DNA from: Streptomyces sp. NBC_00690
GTDB lineage: Bacteria > Actinomycetota > Actinomycetes > Streptomycetales > Streptomycetaceae
Length of the DNA: 64,000 bases
Direction of reading: 5' to 3'
Assembly (NCBI RefSeq): GCF_036226685.1
Contig: NZ_CP109009.1
Coordinates: 7,839,501 to 7,903,500, forward strand
Under the pieces are notes generated by a model. That model saw only the letters and a program-made list of their open reading frames with translations, did no database searches and had not been told where the DNA came from. Made by a program: the position numbers and the translations under genes. Position 1 is the stretch's first letter, and each line of letters begins with the position of its first letter. Below, in pieces: positions 3,455 to 12,729 of the stretch.

Positions 3455-4347
3455 GAGGAGCTAACAGAAAGCTGTGGTGGAAGCCATGTCCTCTTCCCCT
3501 GGCGGATCGTTGGGCGGGGTATGGGGAAGGGGAATGGTCCGCCGTGGGTGGTGTCGGACGACCTGTGGATGCGGGTCGAGCCGCTGCTGCCGGTCAGGCA
3601 GCGCCGGTCGTGCAACCCGGGGCGGCTGCCGCTTGATGACCGCGGTTGCCTGCAGGGCATCTTGTTCGTGCTGCACACCGGGATCCAGTGGGAGTGGCTG
3701 CCGCAGGAGCTCGGGTTCGGCTCCGGAATGACGTGCTGGCGGAGGCTGCGGGACTGGCACGAGGCCGGTGTCTGGGACCGGCTGCACCAGCTGCTTCTCA
3801 CCGAACTGCATCGCGCGGGGAAGCTGGACTGGTCCCGGGCGGTGATCGACGGCTCGCACCGCCAAGCCCGTCGGGGCGGCCCAAAACCGGGCCGAGCCCG
3901 GTCGACCGCGCCCGGCCCGGCTCGAAGCACCACATCATCACCGATGCCGTCGGCACACCGCTTGCCATCACCCTGACCGGCGGAAACCGCCACGACGTCA
4001 CCCAGCTACTGCCCCTACTCGACGCGATCCCCCGCATCCGCGGGACCACCGGCCGGCCACGCCACCGTCCCCGGCAGCTGTTCGCCGACCGAGGCTACGA
4101 CTACGACAAGTACCGCCGACTGCTGTGGAAGCGCGGCATCAAACCAGTCATCGCTCGCCGGGGCGTGCCCCACGGCTCCGGCCTAGGCACTGTTCGGTGG
4201 GTCGTCGAGCGCACGAACGCTTGGATTCATGGCTTCCGACGGCTACGGATCCGCTGGGACATCCGCGACGACATCCACGAAGCGTTCCTGAAACTCGCCT
4301 GCTGCGTGATCACCTACAGACGAGTCCAGGCATTGTGTTAGCTCCTC
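3455..4347 (+). mobile_element. IS5-family insertion sequence (IS427-like), apparently complete
   Basis: About 893 bp bounded by 12-bp perfect terminal inverted repeats GAGGAGCTAACA (left, from 3455) and its complement (right, ending 4347). TAA flanks both ends (3452-3454 and 4348-4350) and fits a target duplication. The boundary is ambiguous by a base because the next pair also matches. One transposase gene split into two frames fills the element, the usual IS427 plan. Confidence 0.85.
3521..4341 (+). CDS. IS5-family DDE transposase, two frames joined by -1 frameshift
   Basis: Frame A from ATG 3521 encodes the N-terminal half (DLWMRVEPLLP, then the first catalytic Asp in VIDGSHRQ). The rest (GSKHHIITDAVG, second Asp in LFADRGYD, Glu in WVVERTNAW) is in the -1 frame ending at 4341. 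At the junction lies C CCA AAA (3880-3886) in the correct phase, a classical X XXY YYZ slippery heptamer, so a -1 slip yields one transposase of about 273 residues. All three DDE residues are present, so the element may be active. Two-frame organisation is normal in this group, so this is not called a pseudogene. Confidence 0.85.
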
Positions 4348-5052: not shown

Positions 5053-5553
5053 ATGGCCAAACAGCGTCGGGACACCGCCGAGGTACGGGCGAGTGCCCTA
5101 GCATCGGGGGTGCGGCTGCGCATCATCCGGCTCACACGCACGCACGCTCTGACGAACAAGGAGCTTGCTGAGCGGTTGGGTAGGGACCCCGCGACCACAC
5201 TGCACCATGTGCGCAAGCTGGTGGAGGCCGGACTCCTGGAGCCGCAGCCACCTCGCCGCGGGAATCGAGGCGCCCGGGAGATCCCCTATCGCTCTCTGGG
5301 CCTCCCTTGGACCAGGGGCCCTCGGAACGAAGGACCCATCGCCGAGGCGATGTTGGAGGCATTTCTCGCCGAGGCGGGTGAGCTCGATATGAAGGACGTC
5401 GACCAGGTCCGCTTCGTACTGGATCTCACGCCGGAACGGCGAGAGGAGTACCAACGCCGTCTGGAGAAGCTCATCGAGGAGTTCGATCACGACGACGCCG
5501 CCCCGGAAACCCAACGAACGGCGGTCTACATCGCCGTGTACCCGAGTCTGTGA
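5053..5553 (+). CDS. ArsR-type winged-helix transcriptional regulator
   Basis: A 166-residue regulator with an N-terminal winged helix at about residues 15-75: ALASGVRLRIIRL, then ALTNKELAERLGRDPATTLHHVRKLVEAGLL. The C-terminal half carries helical, charged segments (FVLDLTPERREEYQRRLEKL), a layout common in Streptomyces regulators paired with MFS exporters. It converges on the MFS gene with 33 nt between the stop codons, so it probably controls that promoter in trans. No metal-binding cysteines are seen, so metal sensing is unlikely. Confidence 0.85.
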   Translation: MAKQRRDTAEVRASALASGVRLRIIRLTRTHALTNKELAERLGRDPATTLHHVRKLVEAGLLEPQPPRRGNRGAREIPYRSLGLPWTRGPRNEGPIAEAMLEAFLAEAGELDMKDVDQVRFVLDLTPERREEYQRRLEKLIEEFDHDDAAPETQRTAVYIAVYPSL

Positions 5554-5586: not shown

Positions 5587-6852
5587 TCAGATACGGGATG
5601 GAACCTCTTCCTCATCCTCGGTTCGAACGACGGGAAACTCCCGCAGCGTGCGCAGGGGGGACAGTAGGAGGGGCAGGGAGGTCAAGGCAAGGGCTGAGCA
5701 GGTGACCCACAGGGTGGCCCGGACGCCGATCCAGTTGCCGAGTACGCCGCCCAGCAGACCACCCACAGGCATCACACCCCAGGTGATGAACCGTACGCTG
5801 GCGTTGACCCGGCCCAGCAGCCGACCGGGGCAGATCGCCTGCCGGTAACTGACGTTGACGACGTTGAAGACCGTGGTGCCGTAGGCCCGGATGGCAAGAC
5901 CGAGCACACACAGGACGGTCAGCCAGCCGGGCTCCGCGATGGGTATCACCAGCGCCACGGGTGAGATGACCAGCGGGATCAGCCAGATGGCGCGGGCGGG
6001 GCCGATCCACTGTGCACAGCGACCGGCGGTGAGCGCCCCCAGTAACCCACCCACACCACTCAACGCGAGTACGGCGCCGACAGCGCCCGGAGTCAGAGCG
6101 AGGTCCCGGGTGAGGAAGAGGATCTGCATCGAGAGCAGCACCGTGATCGCCAGATTGGATAGAGCGGTGGAAACGGTGATGGCCCGCAATGACTTCTCCC
6201 TGCGGACGAACCTCAACCCTTCTCTCATCTGCGCGCGCACCCCTGTGCCGTCCTGGCTTCGGGGGCGGGGCTCCGCGCGCCTGATCCGGAGCAGGAGAAG
6301 GCCGGCGACTAGGTAGCTGACGGCCGTCGTCAGGGCGGCGGTTGCTGCTCCCACCAGTTGTGCGAGTCCGCCGCCGACGCCAGGACCGACGACCTCGGCG
6401 GCCGAAAGGCTCGACTGGAGCCTGGTGTTGCCCTCCATGAGTTGGGGGCGCCCGACCAGAGACGGCAGATAGGACTGGTAGGCGACGTCGAAGAGCACTG
6501 TGGCCACACTGACGAGAAAGGCAACCGTCATGAGATGCATAAGTGTGAGCACATCGGCCCAGGCGGCGAGGGGGACGGTGAGCAGTAGTGCGGCCCGCGT
6601 GAAGTCCGCCGTCAGCATGACTGGCCTTCGCCGTACGCGATCCACCAACACTCCGGTGGGTAGGCCGATCAGGAGGAAGGCGGCTGTTCCGGCCGCGGTC
6701 AGTAACCCCATCTGCAACGGAGACGCATGCAGCGTAGTTGCCGCGAGCAGGGGCAGCACGGTCTGCCCCACATAGGTGCCGAACTGACTCACCGTCTGGC
6801 CCGCCCATAGCTGACGGAAATCGTGGTGGAACCAGAGGGAGTCTCGGCGCAT
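5587..6852 (-). CDS. MFS exporter (MFS_3 / macrolide-efflux type)
   Basis: A 421-residue membrane protein with about 12 hydrophobic segments. The N-terminal FRQLWAGQTVSQFGTYVGQT and the loop GLPTGVLVDRVRRRPVM mark the transmembrane-secretion-effector (MFS_3) group of drug, macrolide and siderophore exporters. Length is typical. The gene ends 33 nt from the convergent ArsR-type gene. Its upstream region holds inverted repeats that could be an operator. Substrate unknown. Confidence 0.85.
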   Translation of the reverse strand: MRRDSLWFHHDFRQLWAGQTVSQFGTYVGQTVLPLLAATTLHASPLQMGLLTAAGTAAFLLIGLPTGVLVDRVRRRPVMLTADFTRAALLLTVPLAAWADVLTLMHLMTVAFLVSVATVLFDVAYQSYLPSLVGRPQLMEGNTRLQSSLSAAEVVGPGVGGGLAQLVGAATAALTTAVSYLVAGLLLLRIRRAEPRPRSQDGTGVRAQMREGLRFVRREKSLRAITVSTALSNLAITVLLSMQILFLTRDLALTPGAVGAVLALSGVGGLLGALTAGRCAQWIGPARAIWLIPLVISPVALVIPIAEPGWLTVLCVLGLAIRAYGTTVFNVVNVSYRQAICPGRLLGRVNASVRFITWGVMPVGGLLGGVLGNWIGVRATLWVTCSALALTSLPLLLSPLRTLREFPVVRTEDEEEVPSRI

Positions 6853-6910: not shown

Positions 6911-7392
6911 TTCTTCTGTGGTAGGTGCGGAGACTGTTTTCATCACGTGATGGCACTAGGGGTGTTCAGTGATGCCATTCGGCCATTTCCCCCACTCTGC
7001 TCATCGCCCTCTGCCGAGAATGGTGGCGGTGGTCGCGACCTGCGTCGATGCCAGGAGAGCGCTCCCTCTGTCGGGGTGAGGCTTCTTCTCGTTCGCGCGA
7101 GAGTCAGCCGTCGCGCGAATTTGGCAGATGCACCTACATGTTGCACGTCAGTGACGTGGTCCCTGGTACCCGCCCCGGCGAGATACGAGGGGGGCGGTGT
7201 CGGGGCTTGAAGATGTCCGTCCTGCTGTCGCATGAACCTCTCGCTTCACAGGCGCTCTTGTCGCAACGAAGGGGATGCCTGATAGTGAATTTGTATCAAA
7301 TCTATCCCATTCCTTTGCCGTCATTCTTGGCATGGCAGTCATAGCTCATGCTCGCGCTTCGCGGAATCTGCGACTGGAACGAGGTGGTTAGC
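6911..7392. other. intergenic region upstream of the SARP gene
   Basis: No gene is supported. The right end, from about 7260, is AT-richer than its surroundings and presumably carries the SARP promoter, but I could not assign hexamers. Confidence 0.4.
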
Positions 7393-8259
7393 GTGACGGA
7401 AATTCGGAAGTTTGAGCGCATCCGAATCGAGGTACTGGGATCGCTTCGGCTGGTCACAGAAGCTGATTTGGGCGAGCCAGTTCGACTCACCGCACCAAAG
7501 CCACGCCAAATGATTGCCCTGCTCGCACTACAAGCGAACCGAGTGGTTTCCGTTGCAGCGCTGGCCGAGGAATTATGGGGCGACCGGCCGCCGGTGAGTA
7601 TGCGGACAGCGCTTCAGACGTATGTCGTACAGATTCGCAAGTTCCTGGCCCGTCATCTAGGGCGGTCAACAGAAGTCGTAGCCCACGAGATCCTGGTGAC
7701 AAAGCAGGACGGCTATCAGTTCAACGTGGAGCGCGGAGATCTAGACGTTCATGAATTTGAGCGCCTCGCGTCCGCTGGTAGTAGGGCATTGGCAGAGGGA
7801 AACGATGTCCTGGCCGAACGGCTGCTGACCGCTTCCCTGGACTTCTGGCGGGGCCAGCCGCTTGCAGACGTCCAAGCGGGCCCCCTGCTTGAGCCGGCTG
7901 TGGCGTACCTCAAAGAGAGCCGTCTCGCGGTCCTGCAACAAAGGGTAGAGATCAGGCTTCGGCTGGGGCTCCACCATGAACTACCCGCAGAACTCGCGGC
8001 CCTGGTACTGGAGCACCCGACGAACGAAGAGTTTCACGCCCAATACATGCTTGCGCTCTACCGATGTGGTCGGTGTGCCGACGCGTTGAATGTCTACCAT
8101 CGCCTGCGTGAGTATCTGGTGGAGGAACTCGGTATCGATCCTTCGATGAAGGTGCAGAAATTGCATCAGGCCATGCTCGATGCAAATGCGACGCTCGATT
8201 GGCGACGGTATCCACGGCTCGACTCAACAGTCCGACAGGGCGAGCGGCCCGCCGCTTGA
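7393..8259 (+). CDS. SARP-family pathway-specific activator with a TTA codon
   Basis: A 288-residue small SARP. The N-terminal OmpR-like winged helix (about 10-105) contains APKPRQMIALLALQANRVVS, ELWGDRPP and TALQTYVVQIRKFL. The bacterial transcriptional activation domain follows (ALAEGNDVLAERLLTASLDF, then LVEELGIDPSMKVQKLHQAM). There is no NTPase domain, as in ActII-ORF4. GTG 7393 is preferred over the upstream ATG 7348 because GAGGTGG lies at 7381-7387. Codon 61 (7573-7575) is TTA, the rare Leu codon read by the bldA tRNA, so translation is probably tied to development. Phased heptamers start at its own stop codon, just upstream of the MRYAY/P450 genes, which makes those its probable targets. 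Confidence 0.92.
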   Translation: MTEIRKFERIRIEVLGSLRLVTEADLGEPVRLTAPKPRQMIALLALQANRVVSVAALAEELWGDRPPVSMRTALQTYVVQIRKFLARHLGRSTEVVAHEILVTKQDGYQFNVERGDLDVHEFERLASAGSRALAEGNDVLAERLLTASLDFWRGQPLADVQAGPLLEPAVAYLKESRLAVLQQRVEIRLRLGLHHELPAELAALVLEHPTNEEFHAQYMLALYRCGRCADALNVYHRLREYLVEELGIDPSMKVQKLHQAMLDANATLDWRRYPRLDSTVRQGERPAA

Positions 8260-8298
8260 CCGCTCTTTGAGCGCTCTTTGACCGATGGCTGCGATTAT
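8256..8298 (+). promoter_or_regulatory. SARP-type heptamer array and -10 element
   Basis: Three direct heptamers TTGACCG (8256-8262), TTGAGCG (8267-8273) and TTGACCG (8278-8284) are spaced exactly 11 bp apart. They are followed after exactly 8 nt by a -10-like GATTAT (8293-8298). That is the known SARP-box geometry: tandem heptamers on one face of the helix, the last 8 bp before the -10. The first heptamer overlaps the SARP stop codon. The predicted start site, near 8305, would give a leader of about 58 nt ahead of the pentapeptide ORF. Confidence 0.7.
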
Positions 8299-8307
8299 CA
8301 ACGAGTG

Positions 8308-8325
8308 CTTGAACCCCGGTTCAAG
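8308..8325. repeat. 18-bp perfect palindrome in the leader
   Basis: CTTGAACC and GGTTCAAG separated by CC, placed just after the predicted transcription start. It could be an operator for a second regulator or a short 5' hairpin in the RNA. Confidence 0.6.
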
Positions 8326-8362
8326 TCACGATGAAACACCAGCCGGACGAAGGGAGTTCATC

Positions 8363-8380
8363 ATGCGTTACGCATACTGA
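8363..8380 (+). CDS. bytA: five-codon RiPP precursor MRYAY (biarylitide-type, bytA-like)
   Basis: ATG CGT TAC GCA TAC TGA, preceded by AGGGAG (8351-8356) six nt before the ATG. Biarylitide loci are known to use an 18-bp gene for a pentapeptide (MRYYH in Planomonospora) immediately before a P450 that cross-links the aromatic residues of the last three positions. Met-Arg is kept here, and the predicted core is Tyr-Ala-Tyr. It lies 82 nt before a P450 gene and downstream of a SARP-type promoter. Expected chemistry is a Tyr3-Tyr5 aryl-aryl or aryl-ether bond giving a cyclic tripeptide after loss of Met-Arg. A chance five-codon ORF is the main alternative; the ribosome binding site, the MRY start and the context argue against it. 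Confidence 0.75.
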   Translation: MRYAY

Positions 8381-8387
8381 TTCTCTA

Positions 8388-8420
8388 GGTGGGGGCTCCG
8401 ATCCAGTCGGTGCCCCCACC
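8388..8420 (+). terminator. hairpin between the precursor and the first P450
   Basis: GGTGGGGGC (8388-8396) pairs perfectly with GCCCCCACC (8412-8420) around a 15-nt loop. No U-run follows, so it is more likely an attenuating or mRNA-protecting hairpin that raises precursor over enzyme dosage than a full terminator. Confidence 0.55.
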
Positions 8421-8462
8421 CGTCACCCCCGGCCGCCGCTGACCCTCCGGAGCAGGTGCGTG

Positions 8463-9629
8463 ATGGATTACAACCCGCTGAGCCCTGCCGCAATTGACAA
8501 TCCGTACCCCATATACTCCAAACTGAGAGAGTCTTCTCCAATATTCTGGAGCAGACGTATGAATTCTTGGGTGTTGACGCGATATCAGGATTGTCTCTCA
8601 CTCCTCACCGACGCGGACACCTTCGCTAGCGACTGGGCCAGGGCCGGGCATGAGGAAACGGGCTCCGCTGCCAGCCTTCAGGAGTTGGACCCTCCAGAAC
8701 ACACCCCGGTGAGACGTCTGTTCACCGTGGCGATGCGCAACCAACCGCTCGACCGGATCGGTTCTGATGTCCGGGACCTGGCCGACAAGATCATCAGCCG
8801 TCAGTCCAGAAGCTCGGAGAGCTTTGACTTCACCGCCGAAGTGGCCCGCCCCGTCGCTCTCCTCGGAGTGTGTGAACTCCTGGGCATCGAAGAGCCCCCG
8901 GTGGATGATTTCGCCGCGCTTGCGGACGCGATGACCCGGGGCATGGACGCCGGACTCCTTCCCGAGGTGCTCGCCCCCGCGCTCGCCGCGCGGACGGAGT
9001 TGAACCGCCTGATAGCCCACTGGTTCGACGGCTGCGACGACCGGGGGCTGCTGAGCGAGGTGTTGGCCGGAGCCCAGGACGCGGGGCTGTCGAGGGAAGC
9101 GGTCTGGAACAGCGCACGCGTCCTCTTCCTGGCCGGCTTCAGTACCGCCGTCGGCGCTGCGGCCAATGCCGCGCTGGCTCTGGCGACCCACCCCGATACC
9201 TGGGATCAGGTGCGTCGATCCGACGTACTGAGCAGCGGGGTGGATGAATTCATGCGCTTCGACGGCCCCGTCCAAGGGACGACCAGGGCCTGTGTTCGGG
9301 AGACGAAAGTCGGTGACGTCACCATCAAGCGGGGAGACCTGGTGATGGGGCTACTGGGTTCCGCCAATCGCGACCCGGAGCAGTTCCACGACCCGGATGC
9401 CATCGTGCTGACGAGACAACCCAATCGACATCTCGCTCTTGGTTGGGGAATACACGGCTGCTCGGGGGCCATTCTGGCCCGCATCATGATTCGCGCCCTC
9501 CTGGAGAGCGTGACCGAGAACCGTGGGCGTCTGTGCCTCGCGGGGGCGCCCGAACGGCTGCCCCGGGCCACCCTTCGCTACCCGGACCGGCTTCCGCTGT
9601 CCTTTCACCGACGGGAGACACCGCTGTGA
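8463..9629 (+). CDS. cytochrome P450, first of a tandem pair (probable peptide cross-linking enzyme)
   Basis: A 388-residue P450. The I-helix shows AGFST (about 224-228), the K-helix ExxR is EFMR, and the heme loop reads GWGIHGCSG with the thiolate Cys at 333. The conserved Phe that starts the heme motif is replaced (LALGWG instead of FxxG). The frame extends upstream to 8331, but ATG 8463 begins the usual N-terminus (NPLSPAAIDNPYPIYSKLRE) and has GGAGCAGG before it. By analogy with biarylitide P450s it would oxidatively couple the two Tyr rings of the MRYAY peptide. It needs ferredoxin partners that are not encoded here. It overlaps the next gene by 4 nt (GTGA). Confidence 0.9.
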   Translation: MDYNPLSPAAIDNPYPIYSKLRESSPIFWSRRMNSWVLTRYQDCLSLLTDADTFASDWARAGHEETGSAASLQELDPPEHTPVRRLFTVAMRNQPLDRIGSDVRDLADKIISRQSRSSESFDFTAEVARPVALLGVCELLGIEEPPVDDFAALADAMTRGMDAGLLPEVLAPALAARTELNRLIAHWFDGCDDRGLLSEVLAGAQDAGLSREAVWNSARVLFLAGFSTAVGAAANAALALATHPDTWDQVRRSDVLSSGVDEFMRFDGPVQGTTRACVRETKVGDVTIKRGDLVMGLLGSANRDPEQFHDPDAIVLTRQPNRHLALGWGIHGCSGAILARIMIRALLESVTENRGRLCLAGAPERLPRATLRYPDRLPLSFHRRETPL

Positions 9630-10792
9630 AAGAGCTCCTCGTTCACTATGACCCGCTGGACCCCGACACCATTCGTGACCCCTACCCCACCTATGCGGCG
9701 ATGAGGGAGCTGAAGGTCCCCTGCTGGAACGAGATCATGAAGTGTTGGGTCATCACCTCCTACGATGAGTGCAGACGCGTTCTTGGCGACCATGAGAACT
9801 TTGCGGCGGACTGGCGCCGTGGCGGAGAGTCACTGCCGGACAGCGCGCTGAGTGTGCATTCACTCGATCCACCCGACAGTACGGTGATCTACCGGGAGTT
9901 GGCTGCCACCCTGCGCCAGGTCACCACACCAGACCTCTCCAGTCGGTTGCGCCGGACCATCTCCGACAGGCTGCGTGCGCTCTCCGGCCGGGCGGTGGAT
10001 CTCGTCCCTGACTTCACCGAGCCTCTGGCCTGCTGGTTCCTCTCCGAAGTGCTTGAGGTTCCCTCACTCGACACCCCTGAGATCCGACGCGTGGGTGAGG
10101 CCATCCACCGCGCCATGGACGCAGGTCTCGTACCCGAGGCGTTCCAGCCTGGCCGGGACGCGCACCGGAAACTGGCGGCCCTCATCGAGACCTGGGTCGC
10201 ATCGATGAGCCCGGAGCAGCCGCTGCGCAACCTGGTGGACCGGGCGGCTGACGAGCAGCTGGCGAGGACCATGGTCCTGAACTCAGTCAGGACGTTGATC
10301 GCGAACGCGTTCACCTCCCTGCCCGCGTCGCTCGGCACCATCGTGCACGGGTTCGCAGCTGACCCCGAACTCCTCAAGGGGACCGTGGACGAGAAGCGGC
10401 TAGACATGGCTGTCCATGAGTTCCTCCGCCATGAATCGCCGTCACAGGGCACGACCCGCCTCTGTGTGGCGGACACGGTGCTGTCCGGGACGAAGATCCG
10501 CCGGGGCGAGGACGTTCTGACACTGATCTCCGCGGGGAACCGCGATCCGGCGAAGTTCGATGACCCGGATCGGCTCAGGCTGGCGCGCTGGCCCAACCAA
10601 CACATCGCGTTCGGGCACGGTCCGCACAGCTGTTCCGCCGCGATGCTCTCCCGCTTTCTGTTGCGCGAGCTGGTGGCTGTACTGGCTGAAGGCGGTGTGT
10701 CGATTCACCTCACCGGTCCCGTGACATACAAGTCGGCGGCGACCATTCGGATGCGGGCCACTCTGCCGGGAGTGGTGACGCAGCACGCGTAG
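9626..10792 (+). CDS. cytochrome P450, second of a tandem pair
   Basis: Also exactly 388 residues and clearly paralogous to the preceding P450: shared DNPYP/RDPYP start, FA(S/A)DW, A/GMDAGL(L/V)PE, E F (M/L) R, QGTTR and NRDP. The GTG at 9626 overlaps the upstream TGA, so translation is coupled. The heme loop is good (FGHGPHSCSAA, Cys about 336) and ExxR is EFLR. The I-helix reads ANAFTSLPAS and lacks the usual acid-alcohol pair (A/G-G-x-D/E-T), so oxygen activation may differ or it may have become an auxiliary enzyme. The longer frame from 9443 overlaps the first P450 and is not used. Confidence 0.9.
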   Translation: MKELLVHYDPLDPDTIRDPYPTYAAMRELKVPCWNEIMKCWVITSYDECRRVLGDHENFAADWRRGGESLPDSALSVHSLDPPDSTVIYRELAATLRQVTTPDLSSRLRRTISDRLRALSGRAVDLVPDFTEPLACWFLSEVLEVPSLDTPEIRRVGEAIHRAMDAGLVPEAFQPGRDAHRKLAALIETWVASMSPEQPLRNLVDRAADEQLARTMVLNSVRTLIANAFTSLPASLGTIVHGFAADPELLKGTVDEKRLDMAVHEFLRHESPSQGTTRLCVADTVLSGTKIRRGEDVLTLISAGNRDPAKFDDPDRLRLARWPNQHIAFGHGPHSCSAAMLSRFLLRELVAVLAEGGVSIHLTGPVTYKSAATIRMRATLPGVVTQHA

Positions 10793-10920: not shown

Positions 10921-11904
10921 ATGCTCGATCAGCCTGTGCGGTCGCTGGGAGCCAGTGACATGCAGATCACCCGGGTGGGCCTCGGTGGTGCCGGTTGGGA
11001 CGGCTGCGATGACCAACAAGTCATCGACACCATTCGCTACGCCATCGAGCACGGCGTTAACTGGATCGATACGGCGGCGGTGTACGGCCGGGGCCGTTCG
11101 GAGAGGTTGGTCGCCAAGGCACTGGCCGGGGTGGCTGCGGCCGACCGGCCCCAGGTGTTCACCAAGTGCGGACACATCTGGGACACGACCGGGGCGTCCA
11201 AGGAGTTGCGGAAGGTGGGCAGGCCGTCGAACATCCGGCGAGAGGTTGATGATTCGCTGCGCCGATTGGGCGTGGACCGCATCGATCTCTATCAGATGCA
11301 CTGTCCCCCAGAGGACGGGACACCACTGGCTGCGTACTGGGAAACGCTGCTGGAGCTGAAGCAGTTGGGCAAGGTCAAAGCGGTGGGTCTGTCGAACCAC
11401 GGTGTCCGGCAGCTCGCCGAGGCCGAGAAGATGGGACACGTCGACTCTCTTCAACCTCCGTTCTCCGCGATCAGGCGACAGGTGGCGGACCGCGAGATCC
11501 CCTGGTGTGTGGAGCACGGCACAGGCGTGCTCGCCTATAGCCCGATGCAAGCGGGTCTGCTCACCGGGCGATTCACCCGGGCCCGTGCCGAAGCACTGGG
11601 CGAGGACGACTGGAGGGCGGCCGTCGCTGACTTCCAAGGAGCGAGGCTGGAGCGCAACCTTGCCCTCGCCGACTCGTTGCGGCCCATCGCCCGACGGCAC
11701 GGTGTCGGTGTGCCGTCCGTGGCCATCGCATGGACCCTGAGCTGGCCGGGTGTGACAGGGGCGATCGTGGGTGCGAGACGACCCGAGCAGGTGAACGGTT
11801 GGCTCTCCGCTCTGCACCTCGAACTGACGGCGCAGGACCTGATGGACATAGCCGACGCCATAGAGCGCACGACAGCGGGTTCGGGTCCCGTACACCCGGG
11901 CTGA
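10921..11904 (+). CDS. aldo/keto reductase
   Basis: A 327-residue NAD(P)H-dependent (beta/alpha)8 reductase. The catalytic tetrad is visible as Asp and Tyr in WIDTAAVYGRGRSE, Lys in VFTKCG and His in YQMHCP. The late phosphate-binding stretch is AIVGARRPEQV. It starts 129 nt after the second P450 on the same strand, behind GAACGAAAGGGTG. It may act on the cross-linked peptide or on a detached aldehyde or ketone, or be an independent gene. There is no evidence for the substrate. Confidence 0.88.
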   Translation: MLDQPVRSLGASDMQITRVGLGGAGWDGCDDQQVIDTIRYAIEHGVNWIDTAAVYGRGRSERLVAKALAGVAAADRPQVFTKCGHIWDTTGASKELRKVGRPSNIRREVDDSLRRLGVDRIDLYQMHCPPEDGTPLAAYWETLLELKQLGKVKAVGLSNHGVRQLAEAEKMGHVDSLQPPFSAIRRQVADREIPWCVEHGTGVLAYSPMQAGLLTGRFTRARAEALGEDDWRAAVADFQGARLERNLALADSLRPIARRHGVGVPSVAIAWTLSWPGVTGAIVGARRPEQVNGWLSALHLELTAQDLMDIADAIERTTAGSGPVHPG

Positions 11905-12042
11905 GAACCTCCGACCTGGCGCATATCGCGTGAGAGTTGGACTGCTGTTGGCGCGTACACCATCACGTGGTGCCCTGCCGTGCCGCAGTTCCTCGATAGG
12001 GTTGAGTGCATCGCTGTCACCAATGCCGAGCAGGGGTGGGCC

Positions 12043-12729
12043 ATGAGCGGAAGCGACGATGCAGGGGCGACCGGGAGCGTGCGGGAGTGGTTGCGCGGCC
12101 TGGAGGTGTTCGCGGGCCCGCTGGCGGACTTCGACCCCGGTGATGCCCCAGCCGAGCCGGTCGCATTGTTCCTCGGCTGGCTGAGGGAAGCGATCGCTGC
12201 GGGTGTGCCCGACGCCCATGCCATGACGGTGTCGACGGTCGGTCAGGACGGCGGCCCCGATGCCCGGGTACTCATCCTCAAGAACGTCGACTTCAACGGC
12301 TGGCAGTTCGCCGCCCACGGCAACAGCCCCAAGGGCCGCCAACTGGCCGACCTACCCCGTGCCTCGCTCACCTTCTACTGGCCACTGCAAGGCCGCCAGG
12401 TACGGGTACGGGGCACAGTGGAACCCCAGACTCCCGAGCAGAGCGCCCCCGACCTCCTGGCTCGCGCACCCTCCGCCCGTGCCGAAGTCCTGGTTGGCCG
12501 CCAGAGTGACCATCTCGACAGTCCCGAAGAGCGCGACCAGGTCCTTGGTACGGCACTCGCTCGCATCGAGGCGGAACCCACCCTCGTCAGCCCCGCATGG
12601 ACGCTCTACACCCTCATCCCGGTGGAGATCGAGTTCTGGCAGGCCGACAAGGACCGCATCCACAAGAGGCTGCGCTACGAACGCTCTGACCACCACGGCT
12701 CCTGGCAGCGCCATCTGCTCTGGCCGTAA
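12043..12729 (+). CDS. pdxH: pyridoxamine 5'-phosphate oxidase-family flavoprotein
   Basis: 228 residues with the PNPOx signatures: MTVSTVGQDGGPDARVLILK (FMN binding), FAAHGNSPKGRQL, ASLTFYWPLQGRQVRVRG, and a C-terminal dimerisation part ending in WQRHLLWP. ATG 12043 is preferred over the frame's earlier 11980 start because it begins the usual acidic N-terminus. Canonical PdxH makes pyridoxal phosphate with FMN and oxygen. Some Streptomyces paralogues near biosynthetic genes act on other substrates. It follows the aldo/keto reductase by about 139 nt, so membership of the same transcript is uncertain. Confidence 0.82.
   Translation: MSGSDDAGATGSVREWLRGLEVFAGPLADFDPGDAPAEPVALFLGWLREAIAAGVPDAHAMTVSTVGQDGGPDARVLILKNVDFNGWQFAAHGNSPKGRQLADLPRASLTFYWPLQGRQVRVRGTVEPQTPEQSAPDLLARAPSARAEVLVGRQSDHLDSPEERDQVLGTALARIEAEPTLVSPAWTLYTLIPVEIEFWQADKDRIHKRLRYERSDHHGSWQRHLLWP

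Follow-up and report, generated by a model that had tools for sequence, protein, structure and literature searches.

What does a second cytochrome P450 do behind a peptide gene of only five codons? The question is raised by a locus in the 64-kb stretch of DNA from Streptomyces sp. NBC_00690 analyzed here (referred to as the window), where an 18-bp open reading frame (ORF; 8363-8380, forward strand; ATGCGTTACGCATACTGA) with the codons ATG CGT TAC GCA TAC TGA encodes the pentapeptide MRYAY and precedes two tandem P450 genes on the same strand, P450-A (8463-9629) and P450-B (9626-10792). By analogy to the biarylitides, MR would represent the leader and YAY the core of this precursor. A preliminary description of the locus had placed the ORF directly before a P450 gene and behind a Shine-Dalgarno-like AGGGAG (8351-8356, forward strand) 6 nt 5' of the ATG, which proved correct to the base, and a purine-rich stretch is also present 5' of the five-codon ORFs of other tandem loci. 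P450-A starts with an ATG (alternatively with a GTG at 8460) and overlaps P450-B by 4 nt; both genes, already noted as a pair beside the ORF, match the Pfam p450 family and show biarylitide-type kinship. The precursor conforms to the five-residue pattern MxYxY/H of biarylitides, and a bytO-type P450 gene follows its stop codon after 82 nt, within the 500 bp characteristic of these systems. The five-codon gene and the two P450 genes are real, and the locus is a biarylitide locus. Neither the YAY core, on whose novelty the preliminary description took no position, nor its cross-link is new, because the P450 SlyP is already known to act on MRYAY (PMC13417212); the new element is the conserved cassette of pentapeptide, P450-A, and P450-B around this known core.

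The exact 18-mer of the MRYAY gene occurs once in the 9.17-Mb genome of the strain, and an ORF of the type ATG-x-Tyr-x-(Tyr/His/Trp)-stop, for which the base composition predicts about 3e-5 chance occurrences per 200 nt, is found once in the window if both strands are searched; a second five-codon ORF of this strict pattern is absent from the window. Over eight tandem loci, 15 of the 18 alignment columns of the ORF are invariant, compared to 10 in the remaining ~190 nt of the window's stretch, and the variable columns are third codon positions plus one Ala/Asp change, all other codon differences being synonymous. This sole amino acid exchange, Ala4 to Asp, yields MRYDY in two Kitasatospora-type genomes. 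Loss of the five codons in close relatives had been named beforehand as an observation that would speak against the assignment, and the codons are conserved instead. In addition, ATGCGNTAYGCNTAYTGA, a pattern excluding AGR arginine codons and TAA/TAG stops, matched in 4 of 392 Streptomyces genomes, which are exactly the four carrying tandem P450s, while the reversed control pattern gave no match in the same genomes.

A profile scan of named genomes with P450-A retrieved seven loci, one of which is unrelated (30% identity). The other six (59-85%) all carry a five-codon ORF just 5' and a P450-B (48-86%) just 3' of the gene, the peptide being MRYAY in Streptomyces sp. LaPpAH-108, Lentzea sp. NBRC 105346, S. 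sioyaensis, Streptomyces sp. 1-11, and S. bungoensis, and MRYDY in Kitasatospora sp. Root107. Further searches added the genomes G064 (MRYAY) and G857 (MRYDY), so that nine distinct genomes including that of the window were read as DNA (with G205, G281, and G799, whose contig positions coincide with those of named loci, each counted once): seven encode MRYAY, two MRYDY, and all nine P450-B. In a family-wide search, P450-A was matched at 1e-75 in 30 of 394 genomes. Six of these contain it at 59% identity or more, invariably flanked by MRY[AD]Y on the 5' side and P450-B on the 3' side, whereas P450-B is absent beside all 24 weaker matches (43% or less), 18 of which have some five-codon ORF within their 1.5-kb flanks and 5 a different neighboring P450 of ~30% identity. 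Among the matches from a class-wide sample of 394 genomes, the A/B pair was restricted to LaPpAH-108 and the genome of the window. The pairwise identities of P450-A and P450-B are correlated (r = 0.96, 28 pairs). Note that the MKYWH biarylitide loci (L020, L021, L023, L024, L025, L027, L028, L071, L075, L078, L079, and L080) also have a neighboring P450, which is encoded on the opposite strand and ~30% identical to P450-A; they represent a two-P450 arrangement different from the tandem cassette.

The first of the two enzymes can be assigned by its relatives. P450-A is closest to RufO (~269 bits) and P450Blt (~254 bits) among solved structures, and its eight rows form a single branch (100/100) beside the MSYDH group (90/89) in a tree of 53 P450s, which is midpoint-rooted and contains some long rows. 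The ratios of nonsynonymous to synonymous substitution rates (dN/dS) are 0.085, 0.114, and 0.151 for three pairs. The substrate contacts of RufO, as given in the excerpted text of PMC12186263 and transferred by alignment (the published Glu84 being Gln in the RufO chain), are retained as Gln84, Arg188, and Arg231 in all eight rows, while the positions of His234 and Glu238 of P450Blt are occupied by Leu and Ser. According to the excerpt of PMC12951456, SlyP carries Leu224 at this His234 position, and the S. sioyaensis homologue P0016 indeed has this Leu as its residue 224. SlyP from S. lydicamycinicus NBRC 110027, whose native substrate is MRYAY, forms a Tyr3-Tyr5 C-C bond in Nle-RYAY (Nle, norleucine) in vitro, tolerates Trp and Leu at position 4, and does not form a Tyr-His link (PMC13417212). 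P450-A is most likely the orthologue of SlyP and by analogy is likely to form the same Tyr3-Tyr5 C-C bond, in agreement with the Tyr-Tyr linkage proposed in the preliminary description. Other cores occur in single-P450 loci: the enzymes next to MRYIY (L007) and MRYFY (L042) retain the His/Glu pair of the Tyr-His enzymes, so their cross-link may differ from that of SlyP, and L031 (MRHAH) has a core without any tyrosine.

P450-B, which makes the locus less minimal than it had first been called, is a conserved and distinct partner. Its closest solved relatives are P450Blt (248 bits), two other P450 chains, and then RufO (170 bits), and its eight rows again form a single branch (100/100) in the tree; both P450s therefore group with the biarylitide-type enzymes, from which a separate placement would have counted against the original assignment. 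The predicted model (predicted local distance difference test, pLDDT, 82.6; predicted template modeling score, pTM, 0.85) has P450Blt entries, including the biarylitide complex, as its best eight matches in the PDB, followed by RufO. The heme-binding motifs are intact in both P450s, with the ExxR motif and the heme Cys present in P450-B, and dN/dS values of 0.136, 0.170, and 0.150 were obtained for three pairs. P450-B is thus an intact enzyme of the biarylitide type that is maintained by purifying selection. It is not a recent copy of P450-A, to which it is only ~33% identical in the window. Compared to the enzymes acting on linear peptides, Gln84 is replaced by His and Arg188 by His or Gln in all eight rows, while Arg231 and Met172 are retained; Ala or Val stands at the His234 position of P450Blt, Thr at that of Glu238, and the I-helix reads N-[A/G]-F-T where P450-A has A-G-F-S-T. 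We read these altered contacts and the changed I-helix as those of a pentapeptide P450 refitted to another substrate form, which would most simply be the closed ring made by P450-A. A natural A/B hybrid is encoded in S. libani subsp. rufus (P0025, Srufu_006230): its residues 1-300 are 97-100% like the P450-A of locus L034 and residues 301-384 are identical to the P450-B of that locus (84/84), and in L034 a 21-bp direct repeat is common to both genes near the hybrid junction.

The reading we consider probable is that P450-A closes the Tyr3-Tyr5 C-C bond and P450-B then oxidizes the ring before Met-Arg is removed. The SARP-type regulator encoded upstream would switch on the operon, MRYAY would be translated from its own Shine-Dalgarno sequence, and P450-A, like its homologue SlyP, would join the two tyrosines. 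P450-B may then introduce a second oxidation into the cross-linked peptide, either a hydroxylation or a second ring, and the aldo-keto reductase might reduce the resulting product. A prolyl oligopeptidase (POP), borne by the cluster in other species and encoded elsewhere in this genome, would remove Met-Arg, the major facilitator superfamily (MFS) protein would export the product, and a hairpin behind the precursor gene would hold the precursor transcript above that of the enzymes. That P450-B acts on the same peptide is assumed because of the lack of a second five-codon ORF in the window and the overlap of the A and B genes.

Several points weigh against this sequence of events. The product of NBC_00690 is one that we infer, and the function of P450-B is predicted from sequence. 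SlyP works alone in vitro, so P450-B is not needed for the cross-link, and the contrast of one P450 with two is drawn with the published text on SlyP rather than with the DNA of the slyP locus. The altered contacts of P450-B could also signal another substrate. The linkage counts cover P450-A proteins of at least 59% and of at most 43% identity, and relatives of 44-55% from Micromonospora, Sorangium, and others, present among the matches listed, lie outside them. As documented by the hybrid P0025, one strain no longer has a separate pair. The aldo-keto reductase, which was found near the cassette in only three of the loci compared, is not essential, and a nitric oxide synthase gene in the own genome might permit nitration in this strain.

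The strongest competitor, though an unlikely one, is that P450-B modifies linear MRYAY first, by hydroxylation or a RufO-like nitration, or that A (C-C) and B (C-O) cross-link in parallel. The ancestry of P450-B among linear-pentapeptide enzymes, with P450Blt as closest solved relative, would fit this, as would the capacity of the same fold for nitration in RufO (excerpt of PMC12186263), the three chemically possible Tyr-Tyr links, and the nitric oxide synthase gene at 1.31 Mb of the genome. However, the backbone contacts retained by the linear-peptide enzymes compared are altered in all eight P450-B rows, and the synthase gene lies millions of bases from the cassette. It is the only match in the genome and outside the window, so that the co-encoded synthase of rufomycin-type nitration is missing from the locus. 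Genes for this enzyme occur elsewhere in four of the nine tandem genomes, NBC_00690 included, and gave no match in the other five, and nitration was rejected as a general role of the cassette. Much less probable is that P450-B represents a duplicate that is decaying or can be lost without effect, leaving just the cross-linked YAY of the SlyP type as product: the in vitro sufficiency of SlyP and the collapsed pair of S. libani subsp. rufus are compatible with it, but P450-B is present in 9/9 loci, at dN/dS values of 0.14-0.17, with retained heme and ExxR motifs and a well-modeled fold. That the ORF is coincidental and the P450s act on some other substrate can be dismissed, since 18 bp are admittedly very short but form a conservation island with synonymous changes, co-occur exactly with the P450 pair in 392 genomes, and precede enzymes of the expected kinship.

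The cassette is accompanied by further genes. The SARP-type regulator (7348-8259, forward strand; BTAD and Trans_reg_C domains) and the aldo-keto reductase (10921-11904, forward strand), a possible tailoring enzyme, were correctly recognized in the preliminary description and have homologues in LaPpAH-108 (79 and 80% identity, respectively; 74% for the reductase in Lentzea). A second supposed reductase, a PNPOx/PhzG-like protein (11980-12729), is without a homologue in the related loci used for comparison and was discarded as cluster member. Upstream, an MFS transporter, likely an exporter, is encoded on the reverse strand (5587-6852; 81% to LaPpAH-108, 64% to Lentzea), and an ArsR-like helix-turn-helix protein (5053-5553, forward strand; 84% to LaPpAH-108) marks the left boundary of the shared block; these tailoring and export genes likewise exceed a minimal locus. 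An IS5-family transposase match (3646-4341, forward strand) adjoins the left side of the block in common with LaPpAH-108, and the cassette may have been relocated. Farther out, at 1251-2126 of the reverse strand, a Virginiamycin B lyase family protein (PF24684) is encoded.

Two types of tandem loci can be distinguished by their companion genes. The reductase type, with aldo-keto reductase and MFS exporter, comprises the window, LaPpAH-108, and Lentzea, while the peptidase type, with an S9 POP nearby, comprises S. sioyaensis, G064, Streptomyces sp. 1-11, S. bungoensis, Kitasatospora Root107, and G857, the latter assigned by POP position alone (~2.5 kb from P450-A). The loci of Streptomyces sp. 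1-11 and S. bungoensis add an Asp/Asn beta-hydroxylase (a Pfam match in S. bungoensis and 88% homology in Streptomyces sp. 1-11) and an MFS exporter; the beta-hydroxylase is also present in Lentzea and thus bridges both types, and a search for it elsewhere in the own genome, run without a positive control, gave no match at 1e-5. At 1e-100, all six peptidase-type genomes contain two POP copies, that of the cluster being 71-100% and the second 60-61% identical to the S. sioyaensis protein, and single copies are present in LaPpAH-108 (62%) and Lentzea (55%). The genome of NBC_00690 encodes one S9 oligopeptidase homologue outside the window (C1:4804163-4805944, reverse strand), 61% identical to the cluster-borne S. 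sioyaensis enzyme, along with two partial and weaker matches. Together with the published POP that cleaves the cross-linked myxarylin precursor (excerpt of PMC12951456), these copy numbers suggest the genomic POP as a candidate leader peptidase here.

A further feature of the locus is a hairpin at 8388-8420 (forward strand) between the precursor and P450-A genes, consisting of 9 bp, one mismatch, and 5 bp. The 82-nt stretch of the window has a dinucleotide-shuffle z of -2.11 (5 of 200 shuffles fold equally well), and values of -1.13 to -4.08 were obtained across eight tandem loci; all nine have a GC-rich stem-loop ~7-10 nt past the stop codon, with differing sequences and stems that do not align in one register. 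In a test set of 33 loci selected for an ORF upstream of a P450 gene, containing 37 ORFs (9 tandem, 24 single loci; ATG starts and R, S, K, G, F, D, or Q as residue 2), perfectly paired stems 8 bp or longer with loops of 3-10 nt, a rule that does not count the mismatched stem of the window, follow 23 of the 37 ORFs compared to 5 of 419 windows drawn at random from these loci; z values of -2.5 or below (mononucleotide shuffles) occur in 28/37 versus 10/419. In 17 additional loci, where the ORF lies 3' of the P450 gene, the mean z is -2.7; these were outside the control comparison. Where MRYLH ORFs are doubled (L017, L076, L077), the strong hairpin is located behind the second copy, but the pattern is weak and without second-copy preference for the doubled MSYNH ORFs of L074. 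A terminator scan requiring a T tract did not report the hairpin of the window. It is possible that the structure serves as a transcript end or as an attenuator boosting the precursor. No published description of a post-pentapeptide hairpin was found, one paper containing both terms being left aside. If real in vivo, it would provide a search handle for five-codon genes missed by annotation pipelines.

Taken more broadly, the chances are about even that a two-enzyme biarylitide family exists in which A closes the YAY ring, a co-evolved B with rebuilt carboxylate/backbone site re-oxidizes the macrocycle, and the hairpin balances precursor against enzyme across biarylitides. The 18-bp gene would then be the smallest precursor to pass through two P450s one after the other. 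Biarylitide P450s are under development as catalysts for cyclic tripeptides, and in P450-B nature may provide one that acts after ring closure. In that case, what has been published as the SlyP product may be a pathway intermediate and not the end product, a possibility relevant to the reported lack of bioactivity of the biarylitides tested so far (PMC13417212).

A view on the known systems places the cassette between several precedents. Two P450s acting on one ribosomal peptide are known from laurentirubin, where LauB2 installs an aryl-ether bridge after LauB1, as stated in the excerpt of PMC11450843, and from hyalucidin A, represented here by a reference title alone. Laurentirubin is, however, an atropopeptide with a longer precursor, and neither the KSLK leader motif nor the xWxxxx core described in that excerpt is found in MRYAY. 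P450Blt and RufO (MRYLH) have the fold and the pentapeptide-P450 kinship in common with the window's enzymes, but form a Tyr-His C-N link or nitrate Tyr, and the His234/Glu238 pair of P450Blt is replaced in both P450-A and P450-B. The AciB/MRYWY biarylitides have a YxY core and C-C link as predicted for the window, while the precursor gene of the AciB clade lies ~1.4 kb from the P450 gene (PMC13417212) rather than directly upstream. We found neither a second P450 beside SlyP nor the tandem arrangement in the literature covered, the original SlyP paper and supplements being outside this scope. SlyP remains the closest system, with the same pentapeptide and a Leu224 position matched by P450-A (as read on P0016); it differs in having one P450 in the published text, whereas the window encodes a second conserved P450 together with tailoring genes.

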